In this document: positions 1,364-48,441 of the stretch, piece after piece
How the letters are laid out: every line of letters starts with the position of its first letter
Numbering within the stretch: position 1 is the stretch's first letter
Assembly (NCBI GenBank): GCA_903789595.1
Contig: CAIFEZ010000014.1
Span: forward strand, 1 to 48,955
DNA: 48,955 nt
From: an uncultured eubacterium 1-6
GTDB lineage: Bacteria > Bacillota > Clostridia > Lachnospirales > Lachnospiraceae
Direction of reading: 5' to 3'
Translations under genes and position numbers: made by a program
The notes under the pieces: model-generated
Database searches by the model: none
Told to the model about the DNA's origin: nothing
What the model saw: only the letters and a program-made list of their open reading frames with translations

Positions 1364-2473
1364 GTGAGCGAATATATTGTTGAACTGGATCATGTAAACA
1401 AAATATACGGCACCAATCATGTCGTGAAGGATATGAATCTCCACGTAAAGGCAGGAGAATTCCTGACACTGCTCGGTTCTTCCGGCTGCGGCAAGACCAC
1501 GACGCTTCGCATGATCGCGGGATTTGAGATTCCGAGCAGCGGAAGCATCCGGGTGGAGGGAGAGAGCATTGAAGCCAAACAGCCCTTTGAACGGGATGTG
1601 AACACGGTATTCCAGACCTACGCCTTATTTCCGCACAAAACGATTTTCGACAACATCGCCTACGGGCTTCGGATGAAAAAGGTGCCAAAGGCGGAAATCC
1701 GCGAGCGGGTGGAGGAAATGCTTTCTATGGTGCAGCTGGAGGGATTTGATGACCGCTTTCCGTCACAGCTTTCCGGAGGTCAGAAACAGAGGGTGGCGAT
1801 TGCCAGGGCGCTGATCAACCGGCCGAAGGTACTCCTTCTGGACGAGCCGCTGGGCGCGCTCGATCTGAAGCTGAGAAAGCAGATGCAGCTCGAGCTGAAG
1901 CGCCTTCAGAAAAAACTGAATATTACGTTTATCTATGTCACACATGATCAGGAGGAGGCACTGACCATGAGTGACCGGATCGCTGTCATGCATGACGGCA
2001 TCATTGATCAGGTTGCAGCTCCTTCTGAAATATATGAGCACCCGGCGACAAAGTTTGTGGCGACCTTTATCGGAGAGACAAATGTTTTTGAAGGATGTAT
2101 CGTCGAAATCGACGGCAGAACCTGTGAGGTTGCCGTGGAGAACGGATTCGTGCAGGCTAACGGAGATGATTTCAGCAATGGCGAATTTGTCACCATTTCG
2201 GTACGCCCGGAGAAAATCAAGTTCTATAAAGATGATATCGGAAGCTTCGGTCTTCAGGGTATCGTTAAGGATTATATCTATGTCGGATCGGTTCTGAAAT
2301 GCAACATCGTGCTTCCGAACGGCAATGAGGTCCGGGCGGAACGGCTTTCCGGCGAAGAGGTTCCGAAGGTCGGAGAAGTCGTGTATGTCACATGGGATGT
2401 CGGTGATGCTGTGCTTCTTCATAACAGAGACAACACGATTTACAATGCGCTGAACAACATGCCGATTGTGTGA
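1364..2473 (+). CDS. potA: Spermidine/putrescine ABC transporter ATPase PotA
   Basis: The ATP-hydrolysing subunit of a polyamine importer, acting on the inner face of the membrane with PotB and PotC. From GTG 1364 it has 369 residues, with Walker A GSSGCGKT at about 38-45, signature LSGGQKQRVAIARAL, Walker B VLLLDEP followed by LGALD, the H-loop VTHDQEEA, and a C-terminal TOBE regulatory domain (about 240-369). The frame is open back to 1295, but that extension is not PotA-like, and AAAGAGG at 1347-1353 fits GTG 1364. It is first of the pot genes, 88 bases after the P-II gene. Its last codons and stop are duplicated downstream at 2518-2544. Confidence 0.95.
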   Translation: MSEYIVELDHVNKIYGTNHVVKDMNLHVKAGEFLTLLGSSGCGKTTTLRMIAGFEIPSSGSIRVEGESIEAKQPFERDVNTVFQTYALFPHKTIFDNIAYGLRMKKVPKAEIRERVEEMLSMVQLEGFDDRFPSQLSGGQKQRVAIARALINRPKVLLLDEPLGALDLKLRKQMQLELKRLQKKLNITFIYVTHDQEEALTMSDRIAVMHDGIIDQVAAPSEIYEHPATKFVATFIGETNVFEGCIVEIDGRTCEVAVENGFVQANGDDFSNGEFVTISVRPEKIKFYKDDIGSFGLQGIVKDYIYVGSVLKCNIVLPNGNEVRAERLSGEEVPKVGEVVYVTWDVGDAVLLHNRDNTIYNALNNMPIV

Positions 2474-2544
2474 GGAGATGGTTTCGTATTCATTGTTGTG
2501 CTGGGGTTGATTTGAAAATGCCGGCTGTGTGAGGAGATGGTTTC
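2459..2544 (+). repeat. Duplicated potA 3' end (stop-codon echo)
   Basis: The 27 bases 2459-2485, which hold the last potA codons, the TGA and a following GAGGAGATGG, recur at 2518-2544 with two differences (period 59). The bases after each copy are also related. The second copy lies in the potA-potB gap and is not coding. Confidence 0.8.
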
Positions 2545-2606
2545 ATGACTGTCGTTGTTATGATATTGAACTTGCAGGATACGCATAGCATGAGGAGGTG
2601 ATCCGT

Positions 2607-3488
2607 GTGGAAGAAAAGAGTAAAAAGTCGATGCGGTTTCGTTCGAGGGTTCTGCCTGCACTGACTACCGTTGCGCCCGTGAGCCTGTGGATGATTCTCT
2701 TTGTGGCGATACCGATGATCTACGTCATTGTCATCAGCTTCTGCAACATTGATGAGAACTACAATGTCGTATTTCAGTTTACGTTCAAGAATTATATCCG
2801 GCTGATTGATCCGGATTACCTGAAGATTTATCTGCAGTCACTGCTGATTGCTTTTCTGTCTACGGTTCTGGCGCTGCTGATCGCGTTCCCATTTGCGTGG
2901 ATCATCGCGAGAACCAAAAGCAGAAGGAAGAACGTCTTCTATATGCTGGTCATCATACCGTTCTGGACGAACTCGCTGATCCGGATCTACGGGTGGAAGA
3001 CATTTCTCGGAAACAGCGGATGGCTGAACAGCTTTCTGCTGAAGATACATCTGATCAGCGAGCCGCTGGATCTCCTTTATCATCCGGCGACGACGATCCT
3101 CGGCATGGTGTACTGTCTGTTTCCGTTCATGGTACTGCCGCTCTACTCCGCGCTGGAAAAGCTGGACGGAAGTCTCCTGGAGGCTTCGGCGGATCTGGGA
3201 GCGAGAAAGGTGCAGACGTTTTTCGAAGTGATTCTCCCGCTGACCTCGAGCGGTATTTTTTCCGGATGCATTATGGTCTTCATACCGGCGCTGGGATATT
3301 TCTACGTATCGGATATTCTCGGCGGAGGCAACACGGATATGATCGGAAACCTGATCGAACGGCAGTTCCAGAGCGGCAACAACTGGCCTCTCGGAGCGGC
3401 GCTCTCCATTATCCTGATTCTGGTAACGCTTCTGCTTGTGCGGATCTATCAGAAGCTCGGAGGCGACATGGAAAGTCTGGGGGTGTGA
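2607..3488 (+). CDS. potB: Polyamine ABC transporter permease PotB
   Basis: A membrane permease of 293 residues. After a basic N-terminus there are about six hydrophobic segments (first at LPALTTVAPVSLWMILFVA), and the EAA loop that docks the ATPase is visible as LEASADLGARKVQTFFEVI at about residues 190-208. The start is GTG 2607, eight bases after AGGAGG at 2593-2598; the earlier in-frame GTG at 2598 overlaps that ribosome site. It pairs with PotC, three bases downstream, to form the channel, with PotA driving it and PotD delivering substrate. Confidence 0.93.
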   Translation: MEEKSKKSMRFRSRVLPALTTVAPVSLWMILFVAIPMIYVIVISFCNIDENYNVVFQFTFKNYIRLIDPDYLKIYLQSLLIAFLSTVLALLIAFPFAWIIARTKSRRKNVFYMLVIIPFWTNSLIRIYGWKTFLGNSGWLNSFLLKIHLISEPLDLLYHPATTILGMVYCLFPFMVLPLYSALEKLDGSLLEASADLGARKVQTFFEVILPLTSSGIFSGCIMVFIPALGYFYVSDILGGGNTDMIGNLIERQFQSGNNWPLGAALSIILILVTLLLVRIYQKLGGDMESLGV

Positions 3489-3491
3489 TTG

Positions 3492-4322
3492 ATGAATACA
3501 GAGAAAAAAACAAAGGAAAAAAAGGGAGACATCACTCCCGGTCAGGGAATCTTTCTCTTCCTGGTCTACGCATTCCTGTTCCTTCCGATTGTGGTGATCG
3601 TGGTCAATTCCTTTAACGCCACCATGACGAAGCCCTATCTGTCCTGGAAGGGATTTTCCTTCTACTGGTACGGAGAACTGCTCCAGAACGCGGCGCTTCT
3701 GAGTTCCTTCGGCAATACGATATTCCTTGCCGTGGTGAGCACGCTGCTCTCTACCGCGATCGGCACGCTCGGTGCGATCGGAATGTACCGCTACAAATTC
3801 CGCGGGAAAAAGCTGATCGATGCGCTTTTGTATATTCCGGTGGTGATTCCGGAGATTGTGCTTGGCATTTCGCTCCTGACGATGTTTGCCGGAACCGGAA
3901 TTCCAAGAGGCATGGGAACGCTGATCCTCGCGCACGTAACCTTTGATGTTCCATTTGTGATCTTCAATGTCAGGTCAAGACTTGCGGGGTATGATATTTC
4001 ACTTGAAGAAGCAAGCATGGACCTCGGGGCGAACCGGATCCGTACGTTCTTCGAGGTGACGTTCCCGGTGCTTGCTCCCGGAATTGCGGGAGGCGCGCTG
4101 CTGGCGTTCACGCTTTCCATCGACGATGTGATCATCAGTTATTTTGTAAACGGAACTACGAAGACATATCCGCTGAAGGTTATGGAGAGCATTAAGAGCG
4201 GCGTCGCGCCGGATGTGAATGCGCTGAGTACACTGATTCTGGTCGGAACAATCGTGCTGGTCGTTCTGACGCAGAGCGGTATCTTCAGTCGGAAAAAGGG
4301 AAAGAAGAGAAGCCCGGCTTGA
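3492..4322 (+). CDS. potC: Polyamine ABC transporter permease PotC
   Basis: The second permease, 276 residues from ATG 3492, which overlaps nothing but follows the potB stop by three bases with GGGGGTG as ribosome site. Six hydrophobic segments can be read, starting at IFLFLVYAFLFLPIVVIVVN, and an EAA loop LEEASMDLGANRIRTFFEV near residues 170-188. It has the usual PotC size. The C-terminus ends in a basic RKKGKKRSPA tail. The final codons and TGA are echoed 36 bases downstream. Confidence 0.93.
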   Translation: MNTEKKTKEKKGDITPGQGIFLFLVYAFLFLPIVVIVVNSFNATMTKPYLSWKGFSFYWYGELLQNAALLSSFGNTIFLAVVSTLLSTAIGTLGAIGMYRYKFRGKKLIDALLYIPVVIPEIVLGISLLTMFAGTGIPRGMGTLILAHVTFDVPFVIFNVRSRLAGYDISLEEASMDLGANRIRTFFEVTFPVLAPGIAGGALLAFTLSIDDVIISYFVNGTTKTYPLKVMESIKSGVAPDVNALSTLILVGTIVLVVLTQSGIFSRKKGKKRSPA

Positions 4323-4430
4323 TGCGGTTTATAGGGGAATAAGAGAAGATCGGCTTGATGCGGTTCATGGGGAATAAGGAAAGACTGGTTTAAAACCGTT
4401 CATACATGGAACAGAAAAGACCTGGTTTAT
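4308..4430 (+). repeat. Tandem echo of the potC 3' end
   Basis: The unit at 4308-4343, containing CGGCT TGA TGCGG with the potC stop, is repeated at 4344-4379 with few changes (period 36, so the second TGA is in frame). A third, decayed copy can be followed at about 4380-4430 through GAAAGACTGGTTT and ACCTGGTTTA. It fills the potC-potD gap up to the potD ribosome site. Confidence 0.75.
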
Positions 4431-8528: not shown

Positions 8529-9800
8529 ATGGAACGAAATATCGGTACTCTGTTGGTAATCGTAATTTGTGTAATATTGTCGGCGTATTTTTCGGCGACG
8601 GAGACGGCGTTTGCCTCGCTGAATCATATCCGGGTCAAGAATATGGCGGAGAAGGGAGACCGGCGGGCGATCCTCGTGATGAAGCTGCTGGACCGGTATG
8701 ACAGTGTTCTCTCCACAATCCTTGTCGGAAATAACGTGGTGAATATCGGCGCGACTTCTCTTGCAACCGTTTTTTTCGTGAGGATGCTGGGTGAGGATGC
8801 GGGTTCCGGCATTGCGACGCTGGTGACGACACTTGTGCTTCTGATTTTCGGTGAGATCTCTCCGAAGAGCATGGCGTCGGAGTTTCCGGAGCAGGTTGCG
8901 ATGTTTTCTGCGCCGCTTCTTCGCTGTATCATGGTGGTCCTGACACCGGTGAATTTTCTCTTCGGACTGTGGAAGAAGTTTCTGGCGAAGATCATCAAGG
9001 GCGAGGAGGACCGCGCGATTACGGATGAGGAGCTTCTGACGATCGTCGATGAGGCGGAGACCGGCGGCGGGATCGGCGAGGAGGAGAGTGATCTGATCCG
9101 TAATTCGATCGAGTTCCGTGATCAGGAGGCGGTCGATATTCTGACGCCGAGAGTGGACATCGTTGGCGTGGAGTACGGGACATCCAATCAGGAGATCGCG
9201 GATATTTTTGCCCAGACCGGCTATTCAAGGCTGCCGGTTTACCGGGAGGATATGGACCATATCACGGGCATTCTGTATGAAAAGGACTTCTACAACAAGA
9301 TTTTCGGCACGGACCGCACCATCGACGCTATCATCCGTCCGACGGTCTTTATCACAGAGCATAAGAAGATCGACGAGCTCCTGCGTGAGCTCCAGCAGAA
9401 GAAAATTCACCTGGCGGTCGTGGTCGACGAGTACGGCGGTACGGTCGGAATCGTGTCCATGGAGGATATCCTGGAGGAGCTGGTCGGAGAGATCTGGGAC
9501 GAGCACGACGAAATTGTGCAGGAGATTCGCAAGATTACGGACAGCGACTATGTCGTGGAGGGGTCCGCGAACCTCGAAAAGCTCTTCGATGAGATCGGCT
9601 GCGAGCGGGAGCATGATTCCATCACCGTGAGCGGCTGGATTCTGGAGATTGCAGGAAAGGTGCCGTCCCGCGGGGATGTGTATCACTATGAGAACATGAC
9701 CATCCGGATTCTGGAGATGGACGGTCACAGGGTCGGAAAGATCAAGCTCCATGTGGATCGCCCGTCAGCGGAAGAAGAGGACGAGGACGAGAAGTCATAA
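8529..9800 (+). CDS. CNNM/CorC-type hemolysin-family membrane protein
   Basis: 423 residues. The N-terminal DUF21/CNNM transmembrane domain (about 1-135) has three to four hydrophobic segments and the family sequence ATETAFASLNHIRVKNMAEKG with FGEISPKSMASEFPE. A CBS-domain pair follows (about 200-325: LTPRVDIVGVEY to VVDEYGGTVGIVSMEDILEE), then a C-terminal CorC_HlyC domain (about 335-415). Members export or control Mg2+ or Co2+; the old name hemolysin is not supported functionally. The tail is very acidic (SAEEEDEDEKS) and is echoed downstream of the stop. AGGA is the nearest ribosome site, eight bases before the ATG. Confidence 0.9.
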   Translation: MERNIGTLLVIVICVILSAYFSATETAFASLNHIRVKNMAEKGDRRAILVMKLLDRYDSVLSTILVGNNVVNIGATSLATVFFVRMLGEDAGSGIATLVTTLVLLIFGEISPKSMASEFPEQVAMFSAPLLRCIMVVLTPVNFLFGLWKKFLAKIIKGEEDRAITDEELLTIVDEAETGGGIGEEESDLIRNSIEFRDQEAVDILTPRVDIVGVEYGTSNQEIADIFAQTGYSRLPVYREDMDHITGILYEKDFYNKIFGTDRTIDAIIRPTVFITEHKKIDELLRELQQKKIHLAVVVDEYGGTVGIVSMEDILEELVGEIWDEHDEIVQEIRKITDSDYVVEGSANLEKLFDEIGCEREHDSITVSGWILEIAGKVPSRGDVYHYENMTIRILEMDGHRVGKIKLHVDRPSAEEEDEDEKS

Positions 9801-9880
9801 AACCGGCAGCAGCAGAACGGCGGAATTGAGCAGTGGCAGAATGATGCCGGAAATAAGGACGAGAAGTCATAAACGGCAGC
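9785..9880 (+). repeat. Duplicated 3' end of the CNNM gene
   Basis: GGACGAGAAGTCATAA, the last codons and the stop, occurs at 9785-9800 and again at 9857-9872 (period 72, in frame), each followed by an A/C-rich ACCGGCAGC-like stretch. A second short repeat, GATGCCGGAAAT, appears at 9843 and 9899. Confidence 0.8.
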
Positions 9881-10055: not shown

Positions 10056-11063
10056 GTGAATATCCGGGAAACGATTGAAGAAAATGAGATGGATGACCTG
10101 AGCCCTTACGCCGCCCACAGCCGGGAGACGCGGGGGCGCGACTGGCCGATCAGCGAGGATACTGTGCGGACGGATTATATGCGCGACCGCGACCGGATTC
10201 TGCACTGCAAGTCCTTCCGGAGACTGAAGGACAAGACGCAGGTGTTTCTGTCGCCGCAGGGAGATCATTACCGGACGAGACTGACGCATACGCTGGAGGT
10301 GTCACAGATTTCCAGAACGGCAGCGAAGGCGCTGCGTCTCAATGAGGATCTCGTGGAGGCGATTGCCCTGGGGCACGATCTGGGGCACACACCTTTCGGG
10401 CATGCCGGGGAGAGGACGCTGAACAGGCTCTGTCCGTCCGGCTTCCGTCACTATGAGCAGAGCCTTCGCGTGGTGGAGAAGCTGGAAAAGGACGGGGAGG
10501 GACTGAACCTCACCTGGGAGGTGCGGGACGGTATTCTGAATCATCAGATGAGTACGACGCCGCACACCCTGGAAGGCAAGATCGTGAGGATCTGCGATAA
10601 GATCGCGTATATCCATCACGATATGGACGACGCGCAGAGAGCAGGAATCATCAGCGAGGACGATATTCCGATCACGCTGCGGATGACGCTCGGCTATACA
10701 TCCCGCGAGAGGCTGAATACGCTGGTGATGGATCTGATCGCCAGCAGCCGGGACCGGGATGATATTCAGCAGTCGGAGCCGATCCGCGAGGCGATGATGA
10801 CCTTCCGCAAGCTGATGTTCGCGGATGTGTACACGAATCCGGTGGCGAAATCCGAGGAAATCAAGGTAGACCGGATGCTCACGGAAATGTACGGATACTA
10901 TGTTCAGCATACGGAGCTTCTAAAGGGAGAGTACCGCAAGATGCTGGAGCAGGGGGAAGCCCCGGAGAGGGTCGTCTGCGATTACATTTCCGGGATGACG
11001 GATCAGTACGCGATTCACAAGTTCCGGGAAATCTACATTCCGAAATCCTGGGATGTTTTATAA
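10056..11063 (+). CDS. dgt: dGTPase-like HD-domain phosphohydrolase
   Basis: A 335-residue cytoplasmic enzyme expected to cleave dGTP (or another dNTP) to the nucleoside and triphosphate. Its HD metal site is complete: TRLTHTLEVSQISR, ALGHDLGHTPFGHAGE, and KIAYIHHDMDDAQ. KSFRRLKDKTQVFLSPQGDH is the usual N-terminal signature of this subfamily. GTG 10056 is chosen because GGAGGG lies eight bases before it; the frame is open to a TTG at 10041. The gene is 81 bases ahead of dnaG, a common arrangement in Clostridia, so it may be transcribed with primase and sigma factor. Confidence 0.92.
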   Translation: MNIRETIEENEMDDLSPYAAHSRETRGRDWPISEDTVRTDYMRDRDRILHCKSFRRLKDKTQVFLSPQGDHYRTRLTHTLEVSQISRTAAKALRLNEDLVEAIALGHDLGHTPFGHAGERTLNRLCPSGFRHYEQSLRVVEKLEKDGEGLNLTWEVRDGILNHQMSTTPHTLEGKIVRICDKIAYIHHDMDDAQRAGIISEDDIPITLRMTLGYTSRERLNTLVMDLIASSRDRDDIQQSEPIREAMMTFRKLMFADVYTNPVAKSEEIKVDRMLTEMYGYYVQHTELLKGEYRKMLEQGEAPERVVCDYISGMTDQYAIHKFREIYIPKSWDVL

Positions 11064-11144: not shown

Positions 11145-12935
11145 ATGCGATATACAGATGAGGTCATCGAAGATGTCCGCGAACGGAATGACATCGTGGA
11201 TGTGATCTCTCAATATGTAAAGCTTCAGAAGCGGGGCAGCAATTACTTCGGGCTGTGTCCGTTTCACAATGAAAAATCGCCGTCCTTCTCGGTGAGCCGT
11301 GACAAGCAGATGTACTACTGCTTCGGCTGCGGAAAGGGCGGAAACGTATATACCTTTCTGATGGAGTATGAAAATTTCAGCTTTCAGGAGGCAATCAAGG
11401 CCCTGGCGGACCGGGCGGGCGTAAAGCTTCCGGAGGCGGAGTACTCCAGAGAGGAGCGGGAAGAGCAGGACAAGCGGTCCGGACTTCTGGAAATCAACAA
11501 ACAGGCGGCGCTGTATTTTTACTCCAGACTGCATTCTCCGGCGGGACAGGCCGGTCTTGCGTATCTGCAGGGCCGCGGGCTTACCGAAGAGACCATGCGG
11601 AATTTCGGGCTGGGCTACGCCGACAAATACAGCAGCGATCTCTATAAGTTTCTGAAACAGAAAGGATACAGCGACGGCATTCTCAAGGAATCCGGGCTGT
11701 TTCATGTCGATGAGAAACGGGGATTTTCGGACAAGTTCTGGAACCGGGTCATGTTCCCGATCATGGACGCGAACAGCCGGGTGATCGGCTTCGGTGGCCG
11801 GGTGATGGGAGACGGCAAACCGAAGTATCTGAACTCGCCGGAGACGCTGATCTTCGACAAGAGCCGGAATCTGTACGGACTCAATGTGGCGAGAAGAACG
11901 CGGCGGAAGAATTTTATCATCTGTGAGGGCTACATGGATGTCATTTCCATGCACCAGGCGGGATATACGAACGCGGTCGCCTCGCTCGGAACGGCGTTGA
12001 CCTCGCAGCAGTGCTCGCTGATGAGCCGGTTCACGAAGCAGGTTCTGGTGATCTACGATATGGACGGCGCCGGTGTGAAGGCGGCCCTCCGCGCGATTCC
12101 AATGCTGCGGACGGCGGGGCTCTCCACAAAGGTGGTAAACCTGAGGCCCCACAAGGATCCGGATGAATTTATCAAGGCCGAGGGAGCAGAGGCGTTCGAG
12201 CAGCGGCTGGAGGAAGCGGAGAACAGCTTCCTCTTCATGGTCCGCATGACCGAACAGAATTATGACATGAACGACCCCGGCGAACGGAGCAGATTTTTCC
12301 ACGAGGTGGCGGTCATGCTTCTGGAGATTGAGGATGAGATCGAGAGGAACAGCTATACCGAGGCGATCGCGAGAAAATATCACATCGAGCAGAGCATGCT
12401 GGTGTCTCAGGTCAACCGGGAGGCGCTGAAGGGCGTAGGAAGAACCGAGATCCGGGCGCCGAAGAGCACCGACGTGCGCAGGCAGAAGGCTGCCATGGCA
12501 GCGGCTCCGGCGGATAAGGAACAGAAGCTGATGCTCACCTGGATCGCGGGGCAGCCGGGACTTCTGGAACGGCTGAAGGACTACCTCTCACCGGCGGATT
12601 TCACCAACCCGATGTACAGGGAGGTCGCCGTGATGGTTTGGGAGCAGGCCGCGAAGGGCAGGATCAGCCCGGCTGCGATTATCAATCATTTCGAGGACAG
12701 CGCGCAGCAGACAGAGGCCGCCTCGCTTTTCAATACGGACATCACGCTCGACAGCCCGGCGGACCGGAAGAAGGCGCTCTTCGATGTACTGTGCCGCATG
12801 AAGCGGCAGAGCATAGACAAGAGAGCCGACGAGCTGGACCCGTCGGACATGCAGGGGTTCCTGAAGATCATGGACGAGAGAAAAAAACTCGATCAGCTTC
12901 GGGCGAGAGGACTGCCGGACAATATTTTTTCATAA
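11145..12935 (+). CDS. dnaG: DNA primase
   Basis: Makes RNA primers at the replication fork. The 596-residue protein has a CHC2 zinc finger near residues 40-64 (CPFHNEKSPSFSV to YYCFGCGKGG), the primase core with GLGYADKYSSDLYKFL and FGGRVMGDGKPKYLNSPET, a Toprim domain with ICEGYMDVISMHQAG and IYDMDGAG (about 255-335), and a C-terminal helicase-binding region from about 450. AGGAGG lies just ahead of the ATG. It sits between dgt and rpoD, the classical macromolecular-synthesis arrangement without rpsU. Confidence 0.97.
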   Translation: MRYTDEVIEDVRERNDIVDVISQYVKLQKRGSNYFGLCPFHNEKSPSFSVSRDKQMYYCFGCGKGGNVYTFLMEYENFSFQEAIKALADRAGVKLPEAEYSREEREEQDKRSGLLEINKQAALYFYSRLHSPAGQAGLAYLQGRGLTEETMRNFGLGYADKYSSDLYKFLKQKGYSDGILKESGLFHVDEKRGFSDKFWNRVMFPIMDANSRVIGFGGRVMGDGKPKYLNSPETLIFDKSRNLYGLNVARRTRRKNFIICEGYMDVISMHQAGYTNAVASLGTALTSQQCSLMSRFTKQVLVIYDMDGAGVKAALRAIPMLRTAGLSTKVVNLRPHKDPDEFIKAEGAEAFEQRLEEAENSFLFMVRMTEQNYDMNDPGERSRFFHEVAVMLLEIEDEIERNSYTEAIARKYHIEQSMLVSQVNREALKGVGRTEIRAPKSTDVRRQKAAMAAAPADKEQKLMLTWIAGQPGLLERLKDYLSPADFTNPMYREVAVMVWEQAAKGRISPAAIINHFEDSAQQTEAASLFNTDITLDSPADRKKALFDVLCRMKRQSIDKRADELDPSDMQGFLKIMDERKKLDQLRARGLPDNIFS

Positions 12936-12993: not shown

Positions 12994-14121
12994 ATGGAAG
13001 CAGATAACAAGAAATTGCTGGAGAAAACCAAAAGCCTCATTGAGGTAGCCAAGAAGAAGAAAAACGCTCTCGAGTACACAGAGATCGTCGAGTATTACAA
13101 GGACATGAACCTCAATGACAAGCAGATCAAGATGGTTGTGGCATATCTGGAGGATCATGACATTGATGTTCTCCGCATTCAGAGCGAGGATGAGGAGCCC
13201 AATGACGACATGCTCCTTCTCAGCGAAGAGGGGGAGGACGAGACCGACGAGACCGATGTCGAGAATATCGACCTGACGGTTCCGGAGGGCGTCAGCATCG
13301 AAGATCCGGTCCGCATGTATCTGAAGGAAATCGGTAAGGTTCCGCTTCTGACCGCAGATGAGGAAATCGAGCTTGCCAAGCGGATGGAGAACGGAGATGA
13401 AAATGCGAAGAAGCGTCTGGCGGAAGCAAACCTTCGTCTGGTAGTTTCCATCGCGAAGCGGTATGTGGGACGGGGCATGCTCTTCCTGGATCTGATTCAG
13501 GAAGGAAACCTCGGACTGATCAAGGCCGTAGAAAAATTTGATTACCGGAAGGGCTACAAATTCTCAACTTACGCGACATGGTGGATCCGCCAGGCCATCA
13601 CGAGAGCGATTGCCGATCAGGCCCGCACCATCCGTATCCCGGTGCATATGGTAGAGACGATCAACAAGCTGATCCGCGTCTCCCGTCAGCTGCTCCAGGA
13701 GCTCGGCCGTGAGCCTACGCCGGAGGAGATTGCGAAGGAAATGAATATGTCGGTGGAACGTGTGCGTGAGATCCTGAAGATTTCCCAGGAGCCGGTGTCT
13801 CTCGAGACCCCCATCGGCGAGGAAGAGGACAGCCATCTGGGCGACTTCATTCAGGACGACAACGTTCCGGTACCGGCGGACGCGGCTGCCTTCACGATGC
13901 TGAAGGAGCAGCTGGAGGAGGTTCTCGGGACGCTGACTGAGAGAGAGCAGAAGGTTCTGCGTCTCCGCTTCGGTCTCGATGACGGAAGAGCCAGAACCCT
14001 TGAGGAGGTCGGAAAGGAATTCAATGTCACCCGTGAGCGTATCCGTCAGATTGAGGCGAAGGCGCTCCGGAAGCTGCGTCATCCGAGCCGCAGCAGAAAG
14101 CTGAAGGACTATCTGGACTGA
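12994..14121 (+). CDS. rpoD: Housekeeping RNA polymerase sigma factor RpoD/SigA
   Basis: The principal sigma-70 factor, 375 residues. Region 1.1 is present (first ~75 residues, acidic linker after it), region 1.2 reads [20 protein letters not shown], region 2 has [20 protein letters not shown] and [20 protein letters not shown], region 3 [18 protein letters not shown], and region 4.2 [23 protein letters not shown] 12994 has AAGGAG six bases ahead; a GTG at 12970 in the same frame is less likely. The end of the gene is followed by a four-copy echo repeat that reaches the trmK start. Confidence 0.97.
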
Positions 14122-14280
14122 TCCGCCGACTTGCGACAGAAGGCGGGAGGGCTTCTCCGGACTGATCTGCCGATCAACGACAGAAGGCAGAAAGACTGGC
14201 CGGACTGATCTGGCAGTCAACAGCGGAAGGCGGAAAGACTGGCCGGACTGATCTGCCGGTCAACAGCAGAAGGCGGGAGG
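14113..14280 (+). repeat. Four-copy tandem repeat from the rpoD stop to trmK
   Basis: Units begin with C(T/C)GGACTGATC at 14113, 14157, 14200 and 14243 (periods 44, 43, 43). The first includes the last rpoD codons and TGA. Units end in GGCGGGAGG or GGC(A/G)(G/A)AAAG; the intact GGCGGGAGG of the last copy is the ribosome site of trmK. The whole intergenic region is made of this repeat. Confidence 0.85.
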
Positions 14281-14286
14281 ATTATC

Positions 14287-15009
14287 TTGACGAATACACC
14301 GATCATCAACAAAATGTCAGAGCGGCTTCTGGCGGTGGCATCTCTGGTGACGCCGGGCAGCAGAACCGCGGATATCGGAACCGACCACGGATATGTGCCG
14401 GTATATCTGGTGGAAAACGGAATTGTGCCGTCCGCCGTCGCGATGGATGTGAGAAAGGGACCGCTCGCCAGAGCAAAGGAGACGGTGGCCGGCGCCGGGC
14501 TCTCGGACCGTATCGGGCTGCGGCTCTCGGACGGCCTGGAAATGCTGCAGCCGGGGGAAGCGGATACGGCCGTGATCGCGGGGATGGGCGGCATGCTGAT
14601 CTGCCGCATCCTGACATCACATCCGGAGACGACAGCGTCCCTGAAAGAGCTCGTGCTGGAACCTCAGTCGGAGACGGATAAGGTCCGCCGGCTGCTGCCG
14701 GAAATCGGATTCGCGATCACGGATGAAAGAATGATCTTCGAGGACGGAAAATACTACCCGGTGATCAAGGCAGAGAAGCAGGCTGCTTCTCCGGCGGCCC
14801 TCAGTGAAATGGAAGTGCACTTCGGCCCGGTTCTGCTTCAGCGCAGAGATCCCATCCTGAGGAAGTATCTCGCGTGGCAGATCCAGGTCAGCGAGCAGAT
14901 CGCGGGACGCCTTGCAGCGGCGGGCAGCGAAAATTCCATGCAGAGACTTCAGGAAGTAAAGGAGGAACTGCGGCTTCTTCTGGCCGCATACAGCAGATAT
15001 GAAATGTGA
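14287..15009 (+). CDS. trmK: tRNA (adenine(22)-N(1))-methyltransferase TrmK
   Basis: A 240-residue SAM-dependent enzyme that methylates N1 of A22 in tRNA. The class I SAM motif is GSRTADIGTDHGYVPVYLVE at about 20-40, followed by VAMDVRKGPLARAKE and AGMGGMLICRIL in the catalytic domain; the C-terminal third is helical, as in TrmK. The start is a TTG at 14287, six bases after GGGAGG. The start depends on this site because no ATG is nearby. It overlaps the next gene by 11 bases, so translation is likely coupled. Confidence 0.9.
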   Translation: MTNTPIINKMSERLLAVASLVTPGSRTADIGTDHGYVPVYLVENGIVPSAVAMDVRKGPLARAKETVAGAGLSDRIGLRLSDGLEMLQPGEADTAVIAGMGGMLICRILTSHPETTASLKELVLEPQSETDKVRRLLPEIGFAITDERMIFEDGKYYPVIKAEKQAASPAALSEMEVHFGPVLLQRRDPILRKYLAWQIQVSEQIAGRLAAAGSENSMQRLQEVKEELRLLLAAYSRYEM

Positions 15010-15817
15010 AGAGATTATTCAGAGACTGGAACAGAGATATCCGTTAACCTGCGCGGAGGAATGGGACAACCCGGGCCTCCAGGTGGGACGCAGGAACCGT
15101 GAGGTCCGGAAGATCTTCGTTGCTCTGGACGCGACGGAGCAGACGATCCGGGAAGCTGTGGAGTGGGGAGCTGACCTGATGATCACGCATCACCCGCTGC
15201 TGTTTCACAGTATCAGCCAGGTCAATGACGACAGCTTTATCGGCAGACGAGTCCTCACTCTGATTGAAAATGACGTGAACTGCTACGCAATGCACACGAA
15301 TTTCGACGTGCTTAAAATGGCAGAGCTCAACGAGAATCAGCTGAAGCTGCAGAATGCGCATGTTCTGGACGTCATCCGCGAGAATGAGGGCGTCGAGGAG
15401 GGCATCGGACGGGTCGGTGATCTGAAAGAGCCGATGACACTGTACGATTTTGCGGTGGCGGCCAGACGCGCCTTCGGCCTTTCCACGGTGCGCTGCTACG
15501 GGCTGAATGAAACAGAAGAGAATGAGGATTCATCCGAAGACGGTGAAGTGATGGTCAGCCGTGTGGCGGTCTGCGGCGGATCCGGAAAGAGCCTGATCGA
15601 CCGGGCAATTGAAGAGGGCGCGCAGGTTCTGGTGACCGGAGACGTAGACTATCACAGCGCGATCGACGCCATGGCGAAGGGACTCTATATCATCGACGCG
15701 GGACACTACGGCACCGAGTACTGCTTCATCGACTACATGGTGAAGAAGCTGACCAAGCTGTTCCCGGAGTGCAAGGTCCGCGGGGCAAAGATCATACAGC
15801 CGTTCACGGTGATCTGA
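14999..15817 (+). CDS. Nif3-like dinuclear metal centre hexameric protein
   Basis: 272 residues of the NIF3/DUF34 family, homohexamers with a two-metal site; proposed GTP cyclohydrolase I type 2-like activity is not established. Metal-ligand motifs are all readable: EWDNPGLQVG, MITHHPLLFHS, AMHTNFDV, TGDVDYHSA and DAGHYGTEY. It overlaps trmK by 11 bases, a pairing conserved in Firmicutes. Its last codons and stop are repeated twice more downstream with a 33-base period. Confidence 0.92.
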   Translation: MKCEEIIQRLEQRYPLTCAEEWDNPGLQVGRRNREVRKIFVALDATEQTIREAVEWGADLMITHHPLLFHSISQVNDDSFIGRRVLTLIENDVNCYAMHTNFDVLKMAELNENQLKLQNAHVLDVIRENEGVEEGIGRVGDLKEPMTLYDFAVAARRAFGLSTVRCYGLNETEENEDSSEDGEVMVSRVAVCGGSGKSLIDRAIEEGAQVLVTGDVDYHSAIDAMAKGLYIIDAGHYGTEYCFIDYMVKKLTKLFPECKVRGAKIIQPFTVI

Positions 15818-15890
15818 GCAAGGATTGTACCTTCGTTTACGGTGATATGAGAAAGAATTATTCCGCCGTTTACAGTGATCTGAGCTAAGA
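15801..15890 (+). repeat. Three-copy in-frame echo of the Nif3-like gene end
   Basis: CGTT(C/T)AC(G/A)GTGAT(C/A)TGAG occurs at 15801, 15834 and 15867, exactly 33 bases apart. The first copy is the coding end with its TGA; because 33 is a multiple of three, each later copy repeats the stop in the same frame. Confidence 0.85.
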
Positions 15891-15957: not shown

Positions 15958-15958
15958 C

Positions 15959-16053
15959 GTTCCATATATTTGTAACGTTCTATATATATTTGTAACGTTC
16001 CATATATTTTTGTAACGCTCCATATACCTGTAACATTTCATATACTTGTAATA
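15959..16053 (+). repeat. Five tandem copies of an 18-20 base AT-rich unit
   Basis: Units of the form G(T/C)TCCATATATTTGTAAC start at 15959, 15977, 15997, 16017 and 16035. Copy length varies by slippage in the TATATT part. They lie directly after the hairpin and about 110 bases before the kinase start. Confidence 0.8.
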
Positions 16054-18363: not shown

Positions 18364-21300
18364 GTGAAAAAGACGAAAATGTGGAAACGTATCCTCACTG
18401 TTTTGTGTATCGCAGCCATGATGGTGGGTATTGTGAATCCGTCGGCCATCTATGCCGGTGAATCCACACAGGAGACTGCATCCGAACAGACAGACACTGC
18501 TGTATCCGCTCAGACAGAAAACGAAGATACCGGAACGGCGGAGACGACAGTTTCTGGGGAGGCCGGATCTTCTGCCGGATCTGAGAATACGGAAATTACC
18601 GACGGAGCGGTAAGCGGTGCAGAAGTCAATGGAGCTGATGGATCGCCTTCGCAGACTTCTTCCGGAGAGTTGGGGAGCGAGACAGAAGGCGGGTCAGCAT
18701 CAACCGATACCACGGAGAGCACCGGCAATGCCAGGATCATGTCTGTCCAGGCAGCTGCGGATACATCCGGGAATGGGCCGGCAGCGATTTCTGCCTCTTC
18801 TGATTCATCAAATAGCGGTATTGATCTGGAGGCATCTGATGATTACATCGAAGACTATCAGATATCTTATCGTGACGGAAATGACTGGAAGGTTATTACT
18901 GACAGTACCATAGTCCCTGCATATACGACCTTGAGGCTTACGGTGTACTTTGGCGGTATATCCGCAAGTGAGTTGCTCAGTAAGGGAGGCTTGCTGTATC
19001 TGAATGTGCCGGCTCTTCTTCAGAATCCTGCAGTATCGAGCGGGAATGTTACGGACAGCAATGGGAATACGATCGGGACTATTACGGTTTCAGACAACAG
19101 AATCAATCTTCAGGCCAATACAGATTATCTGGAGGCGCAGTTAAAGAAAGAGGAGACTGATTACACGATCGAGAACGGACAGCTGACCTTCACTGCGACG
19201 CCGGATCCCGCAAAGGTTCGGGAGAATTCTGTGCAGACGCTGAAATTCGGCCCGCTGGACATCAAAATTCATTTTGATGCGGATTCCGATGCAAAATCCG
19301 GAAGTCTTTCCCTGGACAAATCTGCGCCTGAATATATTAAGGGATCGGACGGGAACGCATACTTGAAATATTCACTCACGGTCACGACCGGAGAGGCACC
19401 AATGCCTGAGGTGACGGTTACCGATCATTTCACCGCAAATGCGAATGTGGTGGATTCGTATGTCGGTATTTCCTCGTCGGCGCTGACTCTGGCCGATTCA
19501 GAAAATGCAGATAATCCGTATCAGCCTTACGAGGACCGCGGCTCTTCAAGTGACGGAACTGTCGTTCTTTCCGCTGCTTCAACAGGTACAGACCCGGGGA
19601 CAATGCTCTGGACGATCGGGAATATGGATGCATATACAACCAGAACGCTCTATTACTACGTGAAGCTGAAAACGGATTATGTAGGGGCTGTGTCTGCCGG
19701 AGCCGGAGCGATTACCAATACGGCGACTCCGAAATCAAAAATCTACGAACATAATACTGCGTCCTCGACATTCACACCGAAGTCTGCGGCTACGATCTCA
19801 AAGAAAGCCGGAACGGTGACGGAGAATAAGGATAACACCGTAACGATTTCCTACACCATCGCGGTGACAGCGGACGGCAAGAATACCTGGGATTTGAAGA
19901 ACGTGAAAATATCGGATGATTTCGGAGTCACGGACACAAGCATCAGCCGCAGCGAGATATGGGATGCGATCACGCCGACTTCAAAACTCCCGAATCTCGG
20001 CTTCAGTGACTTCAAGATGACTTCGGCTGGCGGGGAAGCAGAAGTAACTTCCGGAACAAGAGGAACATCAAATCCACCTTTTTACTATATAAAGGGTACA
20101 GATGAAAACCCCGGCTTCAATTTTTATCTGGGGGACCTTACACCCGGTGAGACCAGGACAATAACCTATCGAGTTACGATGAAGCCCATATTTTCATCCT
20201 CGGCTGTCAGCATTGGAAACCGGGCGTCGGCATATACAGATGATTCTTCTTCCTTCGGGAACAAGCAGCTGGCTGTTTCATCTGCAAAGAGCACGTTAGA
20301 AAAGCAGCATTGGGACAGAAAAATAGCAGGTTCTGCCACAGATAAGGAAATTGTTCAAAGTCCAGACACTGCCTATACATACAGCGGTGATGCATGGAGC
20401 ACTGCTCCCTCGCCTGCAAAATCGATCACGGTCCCTGCCGGAAGTTTCCAGTATCGGGTAGTTGTCAATGAAAACGGAAAATGGGATGTATCCTCTGCTG
20501 CGTTTAAGGATGCACTTACGGACGGAGGAAAATATCTGCAATATTCCGGCTATCTGGAGGTGAAGTATTATCAGACCGGAATTAATGCCGCCATATCCTC
20601 CGGAACGGACCAGACGGTCGTTCAGACGCTTATGCAGAAGACGGCAGACAAGACGCTTTATTTTAATATTGACGGAATGGACTCCTTTACGCTGATTCCG
20701 CATGTACTGGACAGCACTCTCGGGAGAGGCGCGTATCTTCTCACATACTACGCAAAGCCTCTTTCGGGAAATTTCAGCAGGGAAACAGCGGGGAATTCCT
20801 TCAGTCTGAGCGGGACGATCATCGGAACGGGTAACGGGAGCTTTTCCCTTCCGTCCATGCAGGTAAAGGCAAATGTGACGATCACAGGAAGTGAGGACTA
20901 CAGCGTTAATAAGGCGGGATGGTATTACGATTCCGCAGACACCTCCGACGGATTCAAGAACGGAAAACTTTACTGGGTTATTACAATCAGAGGCACGCAG
21001 ATTCCGGAGGGAATGCAGCTCTATGATGTGCCGCAGAACCAGCCGAACCATACTCTGGATACGTCAATTGCGGGAGTTTACTTCGGGACGCCGGCTTCAG
21101 ACGGAAGTTCATTTACCGATAATTATGCATACTATTCGCAGATCAAGGGGAACAGCGGCTTCACGCAGCTGAGCCCGGGTTCTTACAGCTGGGTTTCCAA
21201 CAGTACTTCCGGAGCCGGAACCCTGACATTTAACAAAAAAGTAGAAATCCCTGACGGCGAGGCTGTGTATATCATTCTGATGACAATGCCAAATTCAACC

Positions 21301-27635: not shown

Positions 27636-27686
27636 TTCCGAGATATCTGCGGAATGACAAATTCCGGGATATCTGCGGGTGACAAA
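27636..27686 (+). repeat. Two-copy tandem repeat before maf
   Basis: TTCCGAGATATCTGCGGAATGACAAA-like 26-base copy at 27636-27661 is followed by a 25-base relative at 27662-27686. The repeat is in the rnpB-maf gap. Confidence 0.65.
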
Positions 27687-27736
27687 TGCGATATTAAGAG
27701 GTTGGTATTTGGTATATTGAAATGGAGCACAGTGAT

Positions 27737-28432
27737 ATGAAAGAAGAGAGCGTCTCTGCATCGCGGATGATTCCGCCGCGCATCATTCTTGCCTCGGGAT
27801 CTCCGCGGCGCCTGGAACTGATGCATCAGGCGGGCTTCGAGGTGGAAGTGGTTCCCAGCCACGCAGACGAGAATGTCGGCGGCGGTACACCGGAAGAGGT
27901 GGTCCGCTGTCTTTCAAAAAGGAAGGCCGAGGATGTCGTCAGGCTTTTTCTGCAAGAGAAGGCGGAGAATGCCGGCGGCGAAATATTACAGGCAAGAAAA
28001 GAGGAGCAGGAACCAAGAGAAATGCAGGATCCGATCATCGTGCTGGGTGCGGACACGATCGTTGCCCGGGATTCAGACATTCTCGGGAAGCCGTCAAGTC
28101 CGGAGGAGGCAGCGGCGACACTGCGGAGTCTGTCCGGGAGGAGTCATGACGTGTATACGGGAGTGACGCTTGTGATGGCGGAGCGTGGCGTGATACAGAG
28201 AGAGGAAACCTTCTCTGTGCGGACCAGAGTCAATGTCTGCAGTCTCACAGAAGAGGAAATCCGGGACTATGTCGCGACAGGAGATCCGATGGACAAGGCC
28301 GGAAGCTACGGCATCCAGGGGATGTTCGCGCGGTATGTGGAAAAAATCGAAGGAGATTACTATAATGTTGTGGGGCTTCCCATTTCTGCCGTCTATCATA
28401 AGCTCAAAGAATGGAATGCCTGTCTGTCATAG
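27737..28432 (+). CDS. maf: Maf-family nucleotide pyrophosphatase
   Basis: A cytoplasmic enzyme that hydrolyses dTTP/UTP or modified nucleotides to monophosphates. The ILASGSPRRLELM opening, EVVPSHADEN, the catalytic GADTIVARDSDILGKP and SGRSHDVYTGVTL, and DKAGSYGIQG are all canonical. At 231 residues it is longer than the usual 190-200: a charged insert (LQEKAENAGGEILQARKEEQ and on) lies between the first two conserved blocks. ATG 27737 has GGAG nine bases ahead; ATG 27722 is also possible. Its final codons and TAG are repeated three more times downstream. Confidence 0.92.
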   Translation: MKEESVSASRMIPPRIILASGSPRRLELMHQAGFEVEVVPSHADENVGGGTPEEVVRCLSKRKAEDVVRLFLQEKAENAGGEILQARKEEQEPREMQDPIIVLGADTIVARDSDILGKPSSPEEAAATLRSLSGRSHDVYTGVTLVMAERGVIQREETFSVRTRVNVCSLTEEEIRDYVATGDPMDKAGSYGIQGMFARYVEKIEGDYYNVVGLPISAVYHKLKEWNACLS

Positions 28433-28583
28433 CGCAATACGTGAGACATAAAGAATTAGAATGCTTGTCTGTCATAGCGTAATACGTGAGACATAAAGAA
28501 TTAGAATGCTTATCTGTCATAGCGTAATACGTGAGACTCAAAGAATGGAATGCTTGTCTGTCATAGCGTAATATGTGAGATTG
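28406..28583 (+). repeat. Four-copy tandem echo of the maf 3' end
   Basis: Units starting AAAGAATGGAATGC or AAAGAATTAGAATGC occur at 28406, 28450, 28495 and 28540 (periods 44, 45, 45). Each contains TGTCTGTCATAGCG with the maf TAG and ends ATACGTGAGA. The first copy is coding; the last runs into the GGAGGGGG ribosome site of the next gene. Confidence 0.9.
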
Positions 28584-36782: not shown

Positions 36783-37283
36783 GGATAAATATATTGTGCG
36801 CATCCGCGCTTTATCCTCATACCTGTTGCCTTCGAAATCGCAAAAAGGCTCTTACGCGCGCTTCGCAGAAGGCGAGCCTGTCTGCGTTTTCGAAGAGCTT
36901 TCTTTGTTTACTGTATAAGTCCCCGCGGCACTTCGCTGCTTCGCGGCTTCCGTGCCGCTAACAGGCATTCGCATTCCCGCGGTGTTCCACACCGCTCCAT
37001 GCTCATACCTGTTGTCGTCGCAAAGACATAGCCGGCCTTGCTCGCCCTTCGGGTGTGCAGTCCGTCTCTGTCATGCGACTGGACTTATTTTTTATGTACT
37101 GTATAAGCTGCGGATTGCTTCGTGCTCCGCACTCTCGCAATCCAGCAGGTATGAGCACTTCCGAGCCGTTGGCACGTCTCTTCGTGCTCATATCTGCTGC
37201 CTTCGAAATCGCAAAAAGGCTCTTACGCGCGCTTCGCGTGCGACGAGCCTGTCTGCGTTTTCGAAGAGCTTATACAGTACATT
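36783..37283. repeat. Dense array of palindromic hairpin modules
   Basis: Nearly the whole gap folds into hairpins. GGATAAA/TTTATCC (36783-36816); a TTCGAA...TTCGAA module at 36831-36897 repeated at 37201-37267; GCGGCAC/GTGCCGC at about 36923-36959; GGATTGC/GCAATCC at about 37112-37143; and CAGCAGGTATGAGCAC (37144-37159) pairing with GTGCTCATATCTGCTG (37184-37199), with a diverged equivalent around 36959-37015. ATGTACTGTATAAGCT (37094-37109) is the exact inverse of AGCTTATACAGTACAT (37267-37282), so the last 189 bases look like an element with 16-bp terminal inverted repeats. The remainder up to pheA (37284-37405) holds its promoter region, not resolved. Confidence 0.75.
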
Positions 37284-40297: not shown

Positions 40298-40417
40298 AAA
40301 GGCTCTGCAGCTATGCTCTGAGGTTATGGAGACATTGAAAGGCTCTGCAGCCATGCTCTGAAGTTATGGAGACATTGAAAGGCTCTGCAGCCATGCTCTG
40401 AAGTTATGGAGACACTG
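40298..40417 (+). repeat. Three 40-base tandem repeats between ppx and ppk
   Basis: Units beginning AAAGGCTCTGCAG start at 40298, 40338 and 40378, exactly 40 bases apart. The last two are identical for 30 bases and more; the first differs at three positions. CTCTGCAG/CTCTGAAG make each unit partly palindromic. The repeat begins 13 bases after the ppx stop. Confidence 0.9.
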
Positions 40418-43655: not shown

Positions 43656-43799
43656 CGTTATCGGATGCTTTACATTCAAATCGAATCATCTTATTATCGG
43701 ACATTTTACATTCGCTACGAATCCATTCGTTATCTGATGTTTTACATTCAAATCGAATCCATTCGTTATCCGATATGGCGTATCCGAATCAATTCGTTA
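43656..43799 (+). repeat. Four 36-base tandem repeats between ilvN and ilvC
   Basis: Units beginning CGTTATC(G/T)GAT start at 43656, 43692, 43728 and 43764, all 36 bases apart, with TTTACATTC and CGAATC inside each; a fifth CGTTA begins at 43794. Copies one and three are most alike, and two and four are more diverged. Confidence 0.85.
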
Positions 43800-44964: not shown

Positions 44965-44966
44965 CT

Positions 44967-45020
44967 CTCAGGCTGTCGGGATTTCGGAATTGTCTCAGGT
45001 TGCCCGGATTCCGGAATTGT
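44967..45020 (+). repeat. 27-base tandem duplication after the ilvC terminator
   Basis: CTCAGG(C/T)TG(T/C)C(G/C)GGATT and CGGAATTGT form two copies at 44967-44993 and 44994-45020 with four differences. A related CGGATTTCGGAATTCGGAATTGT occurs at about 47265. Confidence 0.75.
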
Positions 45021-46618: not shown

Positions 46619-47104
46619 ATGCAGGCACAGGGAACAGTATTCAAATATGGTGACAATGTAGATACAGACGTAATCATCCCCGCCAGATATCTGAACTCTT
46701 CAGATCCGGCGGAGCTGGCGACACACTGCATGGAAGATATCGACAAGGAATTCGTTCACAAATTCCAGAAGGGCGACATCATCGTAGCGAATAAAAACTT
46801 CGGCTGCGGCTCCTCCCGTGAGCACGCGCCGCTGGCCATCAAGGCCGCGGGCGCAAGCTGTGTCATCGCCGAGACCTTCGCGCGTATTTTTTACCGCAAC
46901 GCCATCAATATCGGCCTTCCGATCATCGAGTGCCCGGAGGCGGCAAAGGCGATCGAGAACAGTGACAAGGTGAAGGTGGACTTCGACTCCGGAAAAATCT
47001 ACGACCTGACAAAGAACACAGAGTATCAGGGACAGCCGTTCCCGCCGTTCATGCAGAAGATCATCGCTGCCGGCGGGCTGGTGAACTACATCAACGAACA
47101 GTAG
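46619..47104 (+). CDS. leuD: 3-isopropylmalate dehydratase small subunit
   Basis: 161 residues of the aconitase swivelling domain: [39 protein letters not shown] and [15 protein letters not shown]. The short form pairs with the 421-residue LeuC. AAGGAGG ends nine bases before the ATG and just after the leuC stop, so they form one operon. leuA and leuB are not in the window. The end of the gene is repeated 142 bases downstream. Confidence 0.94.
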
Positions 47105-47255
47105 CATTGACAAGTTGCTGTTCACACGATATCTGAAAGGCAGAGATTTCACATCACTGTTGCCATTCGCAAACTTCCAACAGCCGGTAATGCTCAGGAA
47201 AAGGTGCTGTGAAATCGTTGCCTTGTCAGTTGTGTGCGAACAGCAGCATTGACAA
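47095..47255 (+). repeat. Duplicated leuD end enclosing a palindromic segment
   Basis: The 19 bases CGAACAG(T/C)AGCATTGACAA occur at 47095-47113 and 47237-47255 with one difference; the first holds the last leuD codons and TAG. Between them, GCTGTTCACAC/GTGTGCGAACAGC and GATTTCACA/TGTGAAATC form nested stems. It could be an inserted palindromic element with a long target duplication, or an echo repeat like those at other gene ends. Confidence 0.7.
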
Positions 47256-47401
47256 ATGTTGAATTCGGATTTCGGAATTCGGAATTGTAAAAAAATAGAT
47301 TTACATTGCGGGTTCTTTGCGTTATAATGATCAGGTGCTGTGAAGAAGAACATTGTAAAGAATAACATTGTGATGAAGACTTCTGCATAGCATTTGATCA
47401 A

Positions 47402-47476: not shown

Positions 47477-47483
47477 TTATTTG

Positions 47484-47511
47484 AGGATCTCCGTTTGGAG
47501 GTCCTTTTTTT
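47484..47511 (+). terminator. Terminator after tRNA-Pro
   Basis: AGGATCTCC pairs with GGAGGTCCT around GTTT (one G-U pair), followed by T residues. Confidence 0.85.
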
Positions 47512-47626
47512 GTATAAGTTCAGCCGCATGACAGATACGGAGGTACACCTCAGGGTGGGTGCGCAGGGCCGTCAATGGCTTAGCGGCGACAAAACGTATG
47601 AAATTGCATTTTGAGGTGAGCATGAG

Positions 47627-48373
47627 GTGAAGAGAGTGGGAATTCTGCTATATATTCTCGGGGCAGCAGCCGTGGGCTACGGTTTTCTGATCCTTGCCGC
47701 AGCATCGGGGACGAAATTTTTTGCGGTGTGGTTTCTGATCGGTGTATTCTTTTTCTGGACGGGGTTCATGACCTTTGGGAATCACTGGGGTGCCGTTCCG
47801 TCTGCTGTGCGGATTGCGCTGGCGGTTCTGGCCGCGGCGGCCGTTATCATAGTGGCTGGAGGGACGGCATGCGTCATGACTCACTTTCATGACCGGGCGT
47901 CGGACGGGCTCGATGAGATCATCGTCCTCGGCGCACAGGTCAGAGAGACAGGTCCGAGCCGGGTGCTGAAGAGTCGGCTGAATGCCGCCGCATCGTATCT
48001 GAAGGATAATCCCGAGACGATATGCATCGTCAGCGGAGGCCAGGGACCGAATGAACCCTGCACGGAAGCGGAAGCGATGAAAGAATATCTTGTCGAGAAG
48101 GGGATTCGGGAGGACCGGATCCTTATGGAGGACAAATCCACGACGACCGTGGAAAATCTGGAATTCAGCAGCCGCTTCCTGAACCGCGAGGAGGATTCCG
48201 TTGGAATTGTGACGAACAATTTCCACATGTTCCGAAGCCTGAAGCTCGCAAAGAAAAATGACTATCGCAAATGCCAGGGAATAGCGGCAGGCTCTACGCC
48301 ACTGTACCTGCCGAATAATATTCTGAGAGAGTGTCTCGGGATTGCGAAAGAAGTCGTGAGCGGGAATTTCTGA
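47627..48373 (+). CDS. YdcF/DUF218 membrane-anchored protein
   Basis: 248 residues starting at GTG 47627 with GAGGTGAG ahead. Three hydrophobic helices (about 4-25, 30-50, 60-85) are followed by a DUF218 domain: DEIIVLGAQV, VSGGQGPNEPCTEAEAMKEYL, DKSTTTVENLEFS and GIVTNNFHMFRSLKLAKK. Related proteins (ElyC, SanA) affect envelope or undecaprenyl-linked metabolism; the reaction is unknown. Its end is followed by short GAATTTCTGA repeats and then by the hairpin array. Confidence 0.88.
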   Translation: MKRVGILLYILGAAAVGYGFLILAAASGTKFFAVWFLIGVFFFWTGFMTFGNHWGAVPSAVRIALAVLAAAAVIIVAGGTACVMTHFHDRASDGLDEIIVLGAQVRETGPSRVLKSRLNAAASYLKDNPETICIVSGGQGPNEPCTEAEAMKEYLVEKGIREDRILMEDKSTTTVENLEFSSRFLNREEDSVGIVTNNFHMFRSLKLAKKNDYRKCQGIAAGSTPLYLPNNILRECLGIAKEVVSGNF

Positions 48374-48441
48374 ATTTTTGAATTTATGGCGTTTGAATTT
48401 CTGAATTTCTGATGCCTGAATTTCTGAATTTCCAAATTTCA
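48361..48441 (+). repeat. Short GAATTTCTGA repeats at the YdcF gene end
   Basis: GAATTTCTGA includes the stop codon at 48364-48373 and recurs around 48398 and 48419, with weaker GAATTTTTGA and GAATTTATGG versions between. This is another case of gene-end sequence repeated past the stop. Confidence 0.6.

Follow-up and report, generated by a model that had tools for sequence, protein, structure and literature searches.

The 48,955-nucleotide stretch described here, referred to below as the window, comprises bases 1–48955 of a 97-kb contig (CAIFEZ010000014.1) in the 3.66-Mb draft genome of uncultured eubacterium 1-6 (GCA_903789595.1), a member of the Lachnospiraceae. At several places in the window the end of a gene, or the DNA just past it, is tandemly repeated. 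A tandem-repeat scan of the window returned 39 rows, some of them overlapping, and the listed arrays show 74–97% matches. Genes were called with a hexamer-based caller made for this analysis, not with a published annotator, start positions being approximate, and were named by means of NCBIfam and Pfam. We counted a stop as echoed when an ungapped direct repeat containing the stop codon reached a score of at least 14. Swapped downstream sequence served as the control, and genes less than 320 bp from the end of a stretch were left out. Among the 34 testable stops of the window, that is, those followed by a gap of at least 20 bp, eight recur downstream along with adjacent bases, namely the stops of potA, potC, the CNNM gene, rpoD, the Nif3-like gene, maf, leuD and the YdcF/DUF218 gene. 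The repeats are listed below; the gene after rpoD is one that we take to be trmK, although NCBIfam gave no match.

2459..2606, plus strand: potA/potB junction, stop at 2473; a segment with the stop and the Shine-Dalgarno sequence present three times
4297..4385, plus strand: array at the potC 3' end, period 36, 2.5 copies, 83% matches
9785..9875, plus strand: CNNM gene end GGACGAGAAGTCATAAA, stop at 9800, repeated once, 72 bp on
14110..14290, plus strand: rpoD/trmK-like junction, stop at 14121; copies of the rpoD end at intervals of about 43 bp
15787..15884, plus strand: Nif3-like gene end, stop at 15817; three copies with period 33, best match at 66
15958..16051, plus strand: second, different array of period 20 in the same intergenic region as the Nif3 repeat
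28406..28580, plus strand: array at the maf gene end, stop at 28432; 3.9 copies of units of about 45 bp
40298..40414, plus strand: array past ppx, beginning 13 bp after the stop at 40284; period 40, 2.9 copies, 97% matches
43658..43774, plus strand: array past ilvN, beginning 35 bp after the stop at 43622; period 36
44966..45020, plus strand: array past ilvC, beginning 68 bp after the stop at 44897; period 27, two copies
47095..47260, plus strand: leuD end (AACAG.AGCATTGACAA), stop at 47104, repeated once, 142 bp on
48364..48440, plus strand: GAATTTCT-rich array at the DUF218/YdcF gene end that overlaps the stop at 48373; periods 8 and 23, echo distance 31

The original prediction had named twelve gene ends as repeated. 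Eight of them do contain the stop in the repeat. At ppx, ilvN and ilvC the array lies downstream and does not include the stop itself, ilvC having in addition a weak duplication of 11 bp that spans its stop (score 37). At dgt there is nothing: the dGTPase gene at 10056–11063 has an echo score of 7, and no tandem-repeat row falls between 9791 and 13237, the ORF at 11145–12935 encoding DnaG primase. The repeats differ in build. Between potA and potB two near-identical copies lie 59 bp apart and a third can be seen by eye before potB, a repeat that has no row in the tandem-repeat scan. The potC array begins 26 bp before the gene end (stop at 4322, echo distance 36), and the CNNM gene-end repeat is followed by what looks by eye like a terminator hairpin. 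At the rpoD junction the scan (tandem repeats finder, TRF) reported an array at 14157–14276, to which a degenerate first copy across the stop has to be added; the best echo match lies at 130. The maf array, with its best echo match at 134, leaves 14 bp between its end and the next called gene.

The same tests were applied to a sample of 846 kb out of 3,664 kb of the genome, consisting of the window and 40 further stretches selected by position. Here 26 of 516 stops are echoed as compared to 1 of 516 with swapped downstream DNA, so the echoes go beyond chance. By echo rate and by the density of arrays in different kinds of region stop codons are no special target, start codons are avoided, and a mild excess of arrays past stops remains. 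With anchors restricted to gaps of at least 120 bp, echoes were found at 24 of 320 stops (7.5%) and at 31 of 295 random intergenic points, one for each intergenic region (10.5%), as against 4 of 361 starts (1.1%) and 7 of 531 coding points (1.3%). The rate at stops thus differs from that at starts (P=2e-5), while the difference between stops and intergenic points is not significant (P=0.2). Swapped-partner controls gave no echo for stops and intergenic points, one for starts and two for coding points. Array densities tell the same story (5.8 per 10 kb in co-directional regions, 61 in 105.7 kb; 7.7 in convergent regions, 8 in 10.5 kb; 6.5 in divergent regions, which contain no stop, 18 in 27.7 kb). 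When the 91 intergenic arrays of the sample were compared with random intergenic placement, 16 overlapped a stop (14.0 expected) and only 2 a start (15.5 expected). A recurrent duplication process at gene 3' ends had been proposed for the window; its recurrence and its mostly locus-specific units are borne out, but a tie to 3' ends is not supported, since stops are echoed like random intergenic points.

Arrays shorter than 25 bp were excluded ahead of counting, which left 150 arrays in the sample. Although 82% of the sample is coding, 91 of them are intergenic, corresponding to 6.0 arrays per 10 kb of non-coding and 0.85 per 10 kb of coding DNA; they thus lie mostly outside genes. Intergenic arrays consist of head-to-tail units with a median period of 29 bp (5–95% range 12–168 bp) and an average GC content of 44%. 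For arrays lying chiefly within genes, 53 of 59 periods are divisible by 3, as expected from frame selection. The corresponding share of intergenic arrays, 37 of 91, is not different from one third, with periods modulo 3 distributed as 37/29/25 (P=0.29). Only 6 of the 26 stop echoes, including three of the window's eight, have a distance divisible by 3, so the supposed prevalence of such periods at gene ends is not found. The units mostly differ between loci and do not represent one mobile repeat, as had been read from the window: 84 of the 91 intergenic arrays have no BLAST match to any other. The largest BLAST cluster holds four arrays, and a palindrome motif occurs in seven. The BLAST grouping is insensitive: four arrays with the GATGGTA palindrome motif, which marks one family, remained single and count among the 84.

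We then turned to relatives, each species being represented by one genome. By RpoD the closest genomes are three sisters, G003, G011 and G014 (96–98% identity), with the next relatives at 90%. The Nif3 protein shares 93% identity with an uncultured Lachnospiraceae genome, 91 and 83% with two Eubacterium sp. metagenome genomes and 66% with [Eubacterium] cellulosolvens LD2006. Several relatives are fragmented assemblies in which repeats may be lost. The alignment-based distance from rpoD to the next gene is 165 bp in the window, where about five copies are present, and 78–80 bp in the two nearest relatives, where two decayed copies can be recognized by eye. In the third sister (−8), in G012 (−21) and in [E.] cellulosolvens (−22) the two genes abut or overlap. 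The potA/potB gap is 133 bp here (133 or 217 bp downstream of potA, depending on which of two caller trainings is used), 75 bp in G003 and 13 bp in G011, where the ribosome-binding sequence sits directly on the stop. The tandem-repeat scan did not find the window's arrays at the same gaps in the sisters: the Nif3, potC, ppx and ilvN gaps there hold other arrays or none. Past Nif3, G003 again has a period of 33, but 92–220 bp beyond the stop and with another sequence. Like the distributions given above, the difference of the arrays in sisters and the wider rpoD/trmK-like and potA/potB gaps with their junction copies are direct observations. By eye, a relative's coding end resembles the third Nif3 copy in the window (ATTATTCCGCCGTTTAC) more than it resembles the window's own functional end, as if the copy predated later changes in the gene; this is a single case.

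Array density is raised in the whole group of close relatives. Per 10 kb of non-coding DNA we counted 6.0 arrays in the window's genome (91 in 151 kb) and 8.5 in G003, G011 and G014 jointly (46 in 54 kb), compared to 1.6 in six other members of the genus (9 in 57 kb), 2.9 in six genomes of the family (12 in 42 kb) and 2.2 in four of the order (6 in 28 kb). The four-species clade as a whole has 137 arrays in 205 kb (6.7 per 10 kb), about fourfold the density of the six other genus members (P=3e-7). Stops and intergenic points are echoed alike in the sisters (6/145 and 5/119), all six stop cases coming from G003.

We consider it probable that small tandem duplications arise throughout the genome and survive where they do no harm, and that no mechanism connected with stop codons is at work. 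Duplications with intergenic periods mostly of 12–170 bp would be generated all over the genome and then be filtered by selection. In coding DNA chiefly those that keep the frame would remain. A duplication across a start codon would be lost, as it would place a second start region before the gene, whereas duplications in intergenic DNA or across a stop would persist; the latter would be tolerated because the upstream protein would still end properly at the first copy. Where operons are tight, a duplication spanning the junction of stop, ribosome-binding site and start would be harmless to both proteins: the first copy would serve the upstream gene and the last copy the downstream gene, and the copies in between would decay. 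Repeated rounds of this would lengthen intergenic regions and leave gene-end echoes as relics. The excess of repeats at gene ends over starts and coding DNA fits a selective removal of harmful duplications. The molecular event would presumably be ordinary replication slippage or template switching. The array density of the clade presumably reflects a raised duplication rate, and the differences in survival would be due to purifying selection. Selection alone could thus make random tandem duplications appear targeted to stops. The clade, with relatives that retain tight or overlapping junctions, may serve as a system in which the growth of intergenic DNA can be measured.

Several observations weigh against random duplication followed by selection. 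Within 30 bp of a stop there are 35 arrays where 21.5 are expected, a 1.6-fold excess (P=0.001), and within 100 bp there are 49 instead of 34.9 (P=0.003). The 30-bp excess persists if start regions are excluded from the null (30 vs 18.2, P=0.001), if 60 bp around starts are avoided (24 vs 15.3, P=0.01) and if the window is omitted (30 vs 18.4, P=0.001); the window alone gives 5 vs 2.9 (P=0.13). The predicted enrichment of arrays within 30 bp of stops is accordingly present in the 846-kb sample, and an absence of enrichment, which would have spoken against the prediction, is not cleanly what was observed; the echo rate at stops is nonetheless at the intergenic level. Part of the excess may come from the scan, which trims decayed first copies: at rpoD the reported array starts 35 bp past the stop, yet a degenerate copy covers the stop. 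Random duplication with selection accounts for a mild 3'-end preference only by supposing that stop-proximal DNA is least constrained. With the contigs in their stored orientation, stop echoes are also commoner at plus-strand anchors (23/356 vs 3/160, P=0.03). Stretches vary in array density more than expected (over-dispersion, chi2 99.3, 40 degrees of freedom, P=6e-7), from 0 to 25.7 arrays per 10 kb; in two stretches with more than 10 kb called non-coding and 0–1 arrays, gene calling may have failed. The window ranks only sixth of the 41 stretches in array density, yet 8 of the 24 echoes with gaps of at least 120 bp lie in it. Its stop-echo rate, 8 of 21 as compared to 16 of 299 in the rest of the genome (P=3e-5), agrees with the earlier impression that the window is unusually dense, but the window itself was picked for its gene-end repeats. 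High density is not restricted to the clade either: 5 arrays lie in 5 kb of G023, which belongs to another genus, and 2 in 3.3 kb of G004, of the same genus but outside the clade. Among the sisters, 5 of 8 arrays in G014 lie within 30 bp of starts and 1 within 30 bp of stops, and in G011 5 of 9 lie near starts and 3 near stops, which speaks against a strong avoidance of starts there. In the six other genus members stops are echoed at a slightly higher rate than intergenic points (6 of 142 and 2 of 120, P=0.3).

A further reading would be that the four-species clade has acquired a raised rate of small tandem duplication, acting by preference directly past stops and at operon junctions, by which genes that once abutted or overlapped would be pulled apart, intergenic DNA would lengthen as by a ratchet and the copies would form a fossil record of older termini. 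We regard this as rather unlikely. A duplication mechanism aimed at gene 3' ends, for instance template switching where transcription or translation ends or where replication runs into a stalled RNA polymerase, would explain why arrays are 1.6-fold enriched in the 30 bp next to stops, also without start regions, as well as the high echo rate of the window (8/21). Such targeting is unlikely, since the echo rate of random intergenic points is no lower than that of stops (31/295 vs 24/320), divergent regions without a gene end are similarly dense, and the number of arrays overlapping a stop is at expectation (16 vs 14.0).

It was also suggested that the echoes are selected for, as back-up stops, for gene spacing or for RNA structure at the 3' end. 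The copies do bear the stop or its remnant, and some precede terminator-like hairpins seen by eye; in Mycobacterium tuberculosis the repeat length between rnc and fpg1 is reported to correlate with expression of the downstream gene (PMC2734929). Back-up stops are not borne out by the periods, which have no significant bias to multiples of 3, only 6 of 26 echo distances being divisible by 3. Nor is RNA structure: folding of the 82 intergenic arrays without the palindrome was no stronger than that of 164 intergenic pieces lacking arrays (mean z −1.15 vs −1.00, P=0.32). Given also that the repeat scan does not recover the window's arrays at the same gaps of the sisters, selection for the echoes appears improbable.

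Loss of mismatch repair in this strain was considered because a frameshift near residue 469 interrupts mutS in the window's genome. The frameshift lies at L142:3386 (contig C11), and both halves match a relative's protein at about 82%; it could be real or a sequencing error. As a cause of the repeats we set it aside as highly improbable. In G003 and G011 the mutS frames are long and uninterrupted (929 and 892 codons), with 10.0 and 5.9 arrays per 10 kb, compared to 6.0 here, and the MutL C-terminal domain was present in all 12 genomes searched, mutS and MutL being the only repair or replication genes included in the search. Furthermore, the decay of many copies makes it probable that the arrays predate a loss specific to this strain. 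An origin of the echoes from a mobile or dispersed repeat family inserting near gene ends, for which one could cite two such families, one found at four loci of the sample with periods of 57–185 bp and the other formed by the GATGGTAA palindrome arrays, was rejected as extremely improbable, because BLAST matches 84 of the 91 intergenic arrays to no other array and the echo units derive from the end of the local gene itself.

The arrays look like a dense case of a known bacterial minisatellite kind, similar to mycobacterial interspersed repetitive units (MIRUs) and variable number tandem repeats (VNTRs). MIRUs share one sequence across loci, whereas here most loci have a unit of their own and the 84 unmatched arrays do not show a unit shared at many places. 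MIRUs are reported at 41 places in M. tuberculosis (PMC2734929). In that species, repeats extend from 40 bp after the rnc stop to the fpg1 start, and the gap measures 279–358 bp within the M. tuberculosis complex and 1–54 bp outside it (PMC2734929); the units of tens of bp and the gap widened relative to relatives resemble potA/potB and rpoD. Borg tandem repeats are described as fast-evolving and independently arising in and between genes, with units divisible by 3 in coding and mostly not in intergenic DNA and with some arrays beginning inside an ORF end (PMC9879509). The split of periods and the arrays starting within ORF ends are the same here, but Borg repeats are perfect and A-enriched, in contrast to the 74–97% matches and 44% GC of our arrays. 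The TAACTGA repeats of marine Beggiatoaceae are intergenic direct repeats, some of them over the upstream stop (PMC4679880), as found here; they differ in being one fixed 7-bp sequence placed mostly before starts, whereas our sequences vary and the arrays of the window's genome avoid starts. In E. coli, minisatellites form a minor class of variable segments (PMC2884548). Among the matches listed in our literature searches, none described gene-end echoes in this bacterial group by title and beginning of abstract, and judged by title nothing related was found for [Eubacterium] cellulosolvens with tandem repeats and nothing relevant for tandem duplication in connection with stop codons and gene overlaps.

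In the palindrome arrays, units of GATGGTAA-N13/14-TTACCATC with locus-specific centres recur every 51–52 bp, about five helical turns. One array occupies about 48470–48955 of the window and continues to about 50 kb of the contig, where the motif appears again at 55.0–55.3 kb (L062); others were found at L056:6434–7030, L052:13067–13353 and L060:19571–19836. The largest comprises 26 units under a relaxed pattern. Perfect copies number 30 in the window's genome, 1 in G003, 2 in G011 and none in nine other genomes searched. Eight proteins encoded next to the arrays have no Pfam family in common. The whole looks like a putative array of binding sites or hairpins.

The dispersed repeat family lies at L052:4607, L059:17204, L067:16307 and L081:16291 and contains words that by eye resemble window positions 36820–37040. 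Two adjacent copies of the Clostridiales-1 RNA (Rfam RF01699) are located on the minus strand at 36916–37273 of the window. RNase P RNA class A is found on the plus strand at 27098–27458, and a two-copy array of 26-bp units follows about 180 bp downstream, at 27636–27687; microhomology at two-copy arrays was listed as well. The window also encodes a 1700-aa protein (18364–23466) whose sole domain match is SpaA-like prealbumin (E=2e-10) and which is perhaps a large surface protein.

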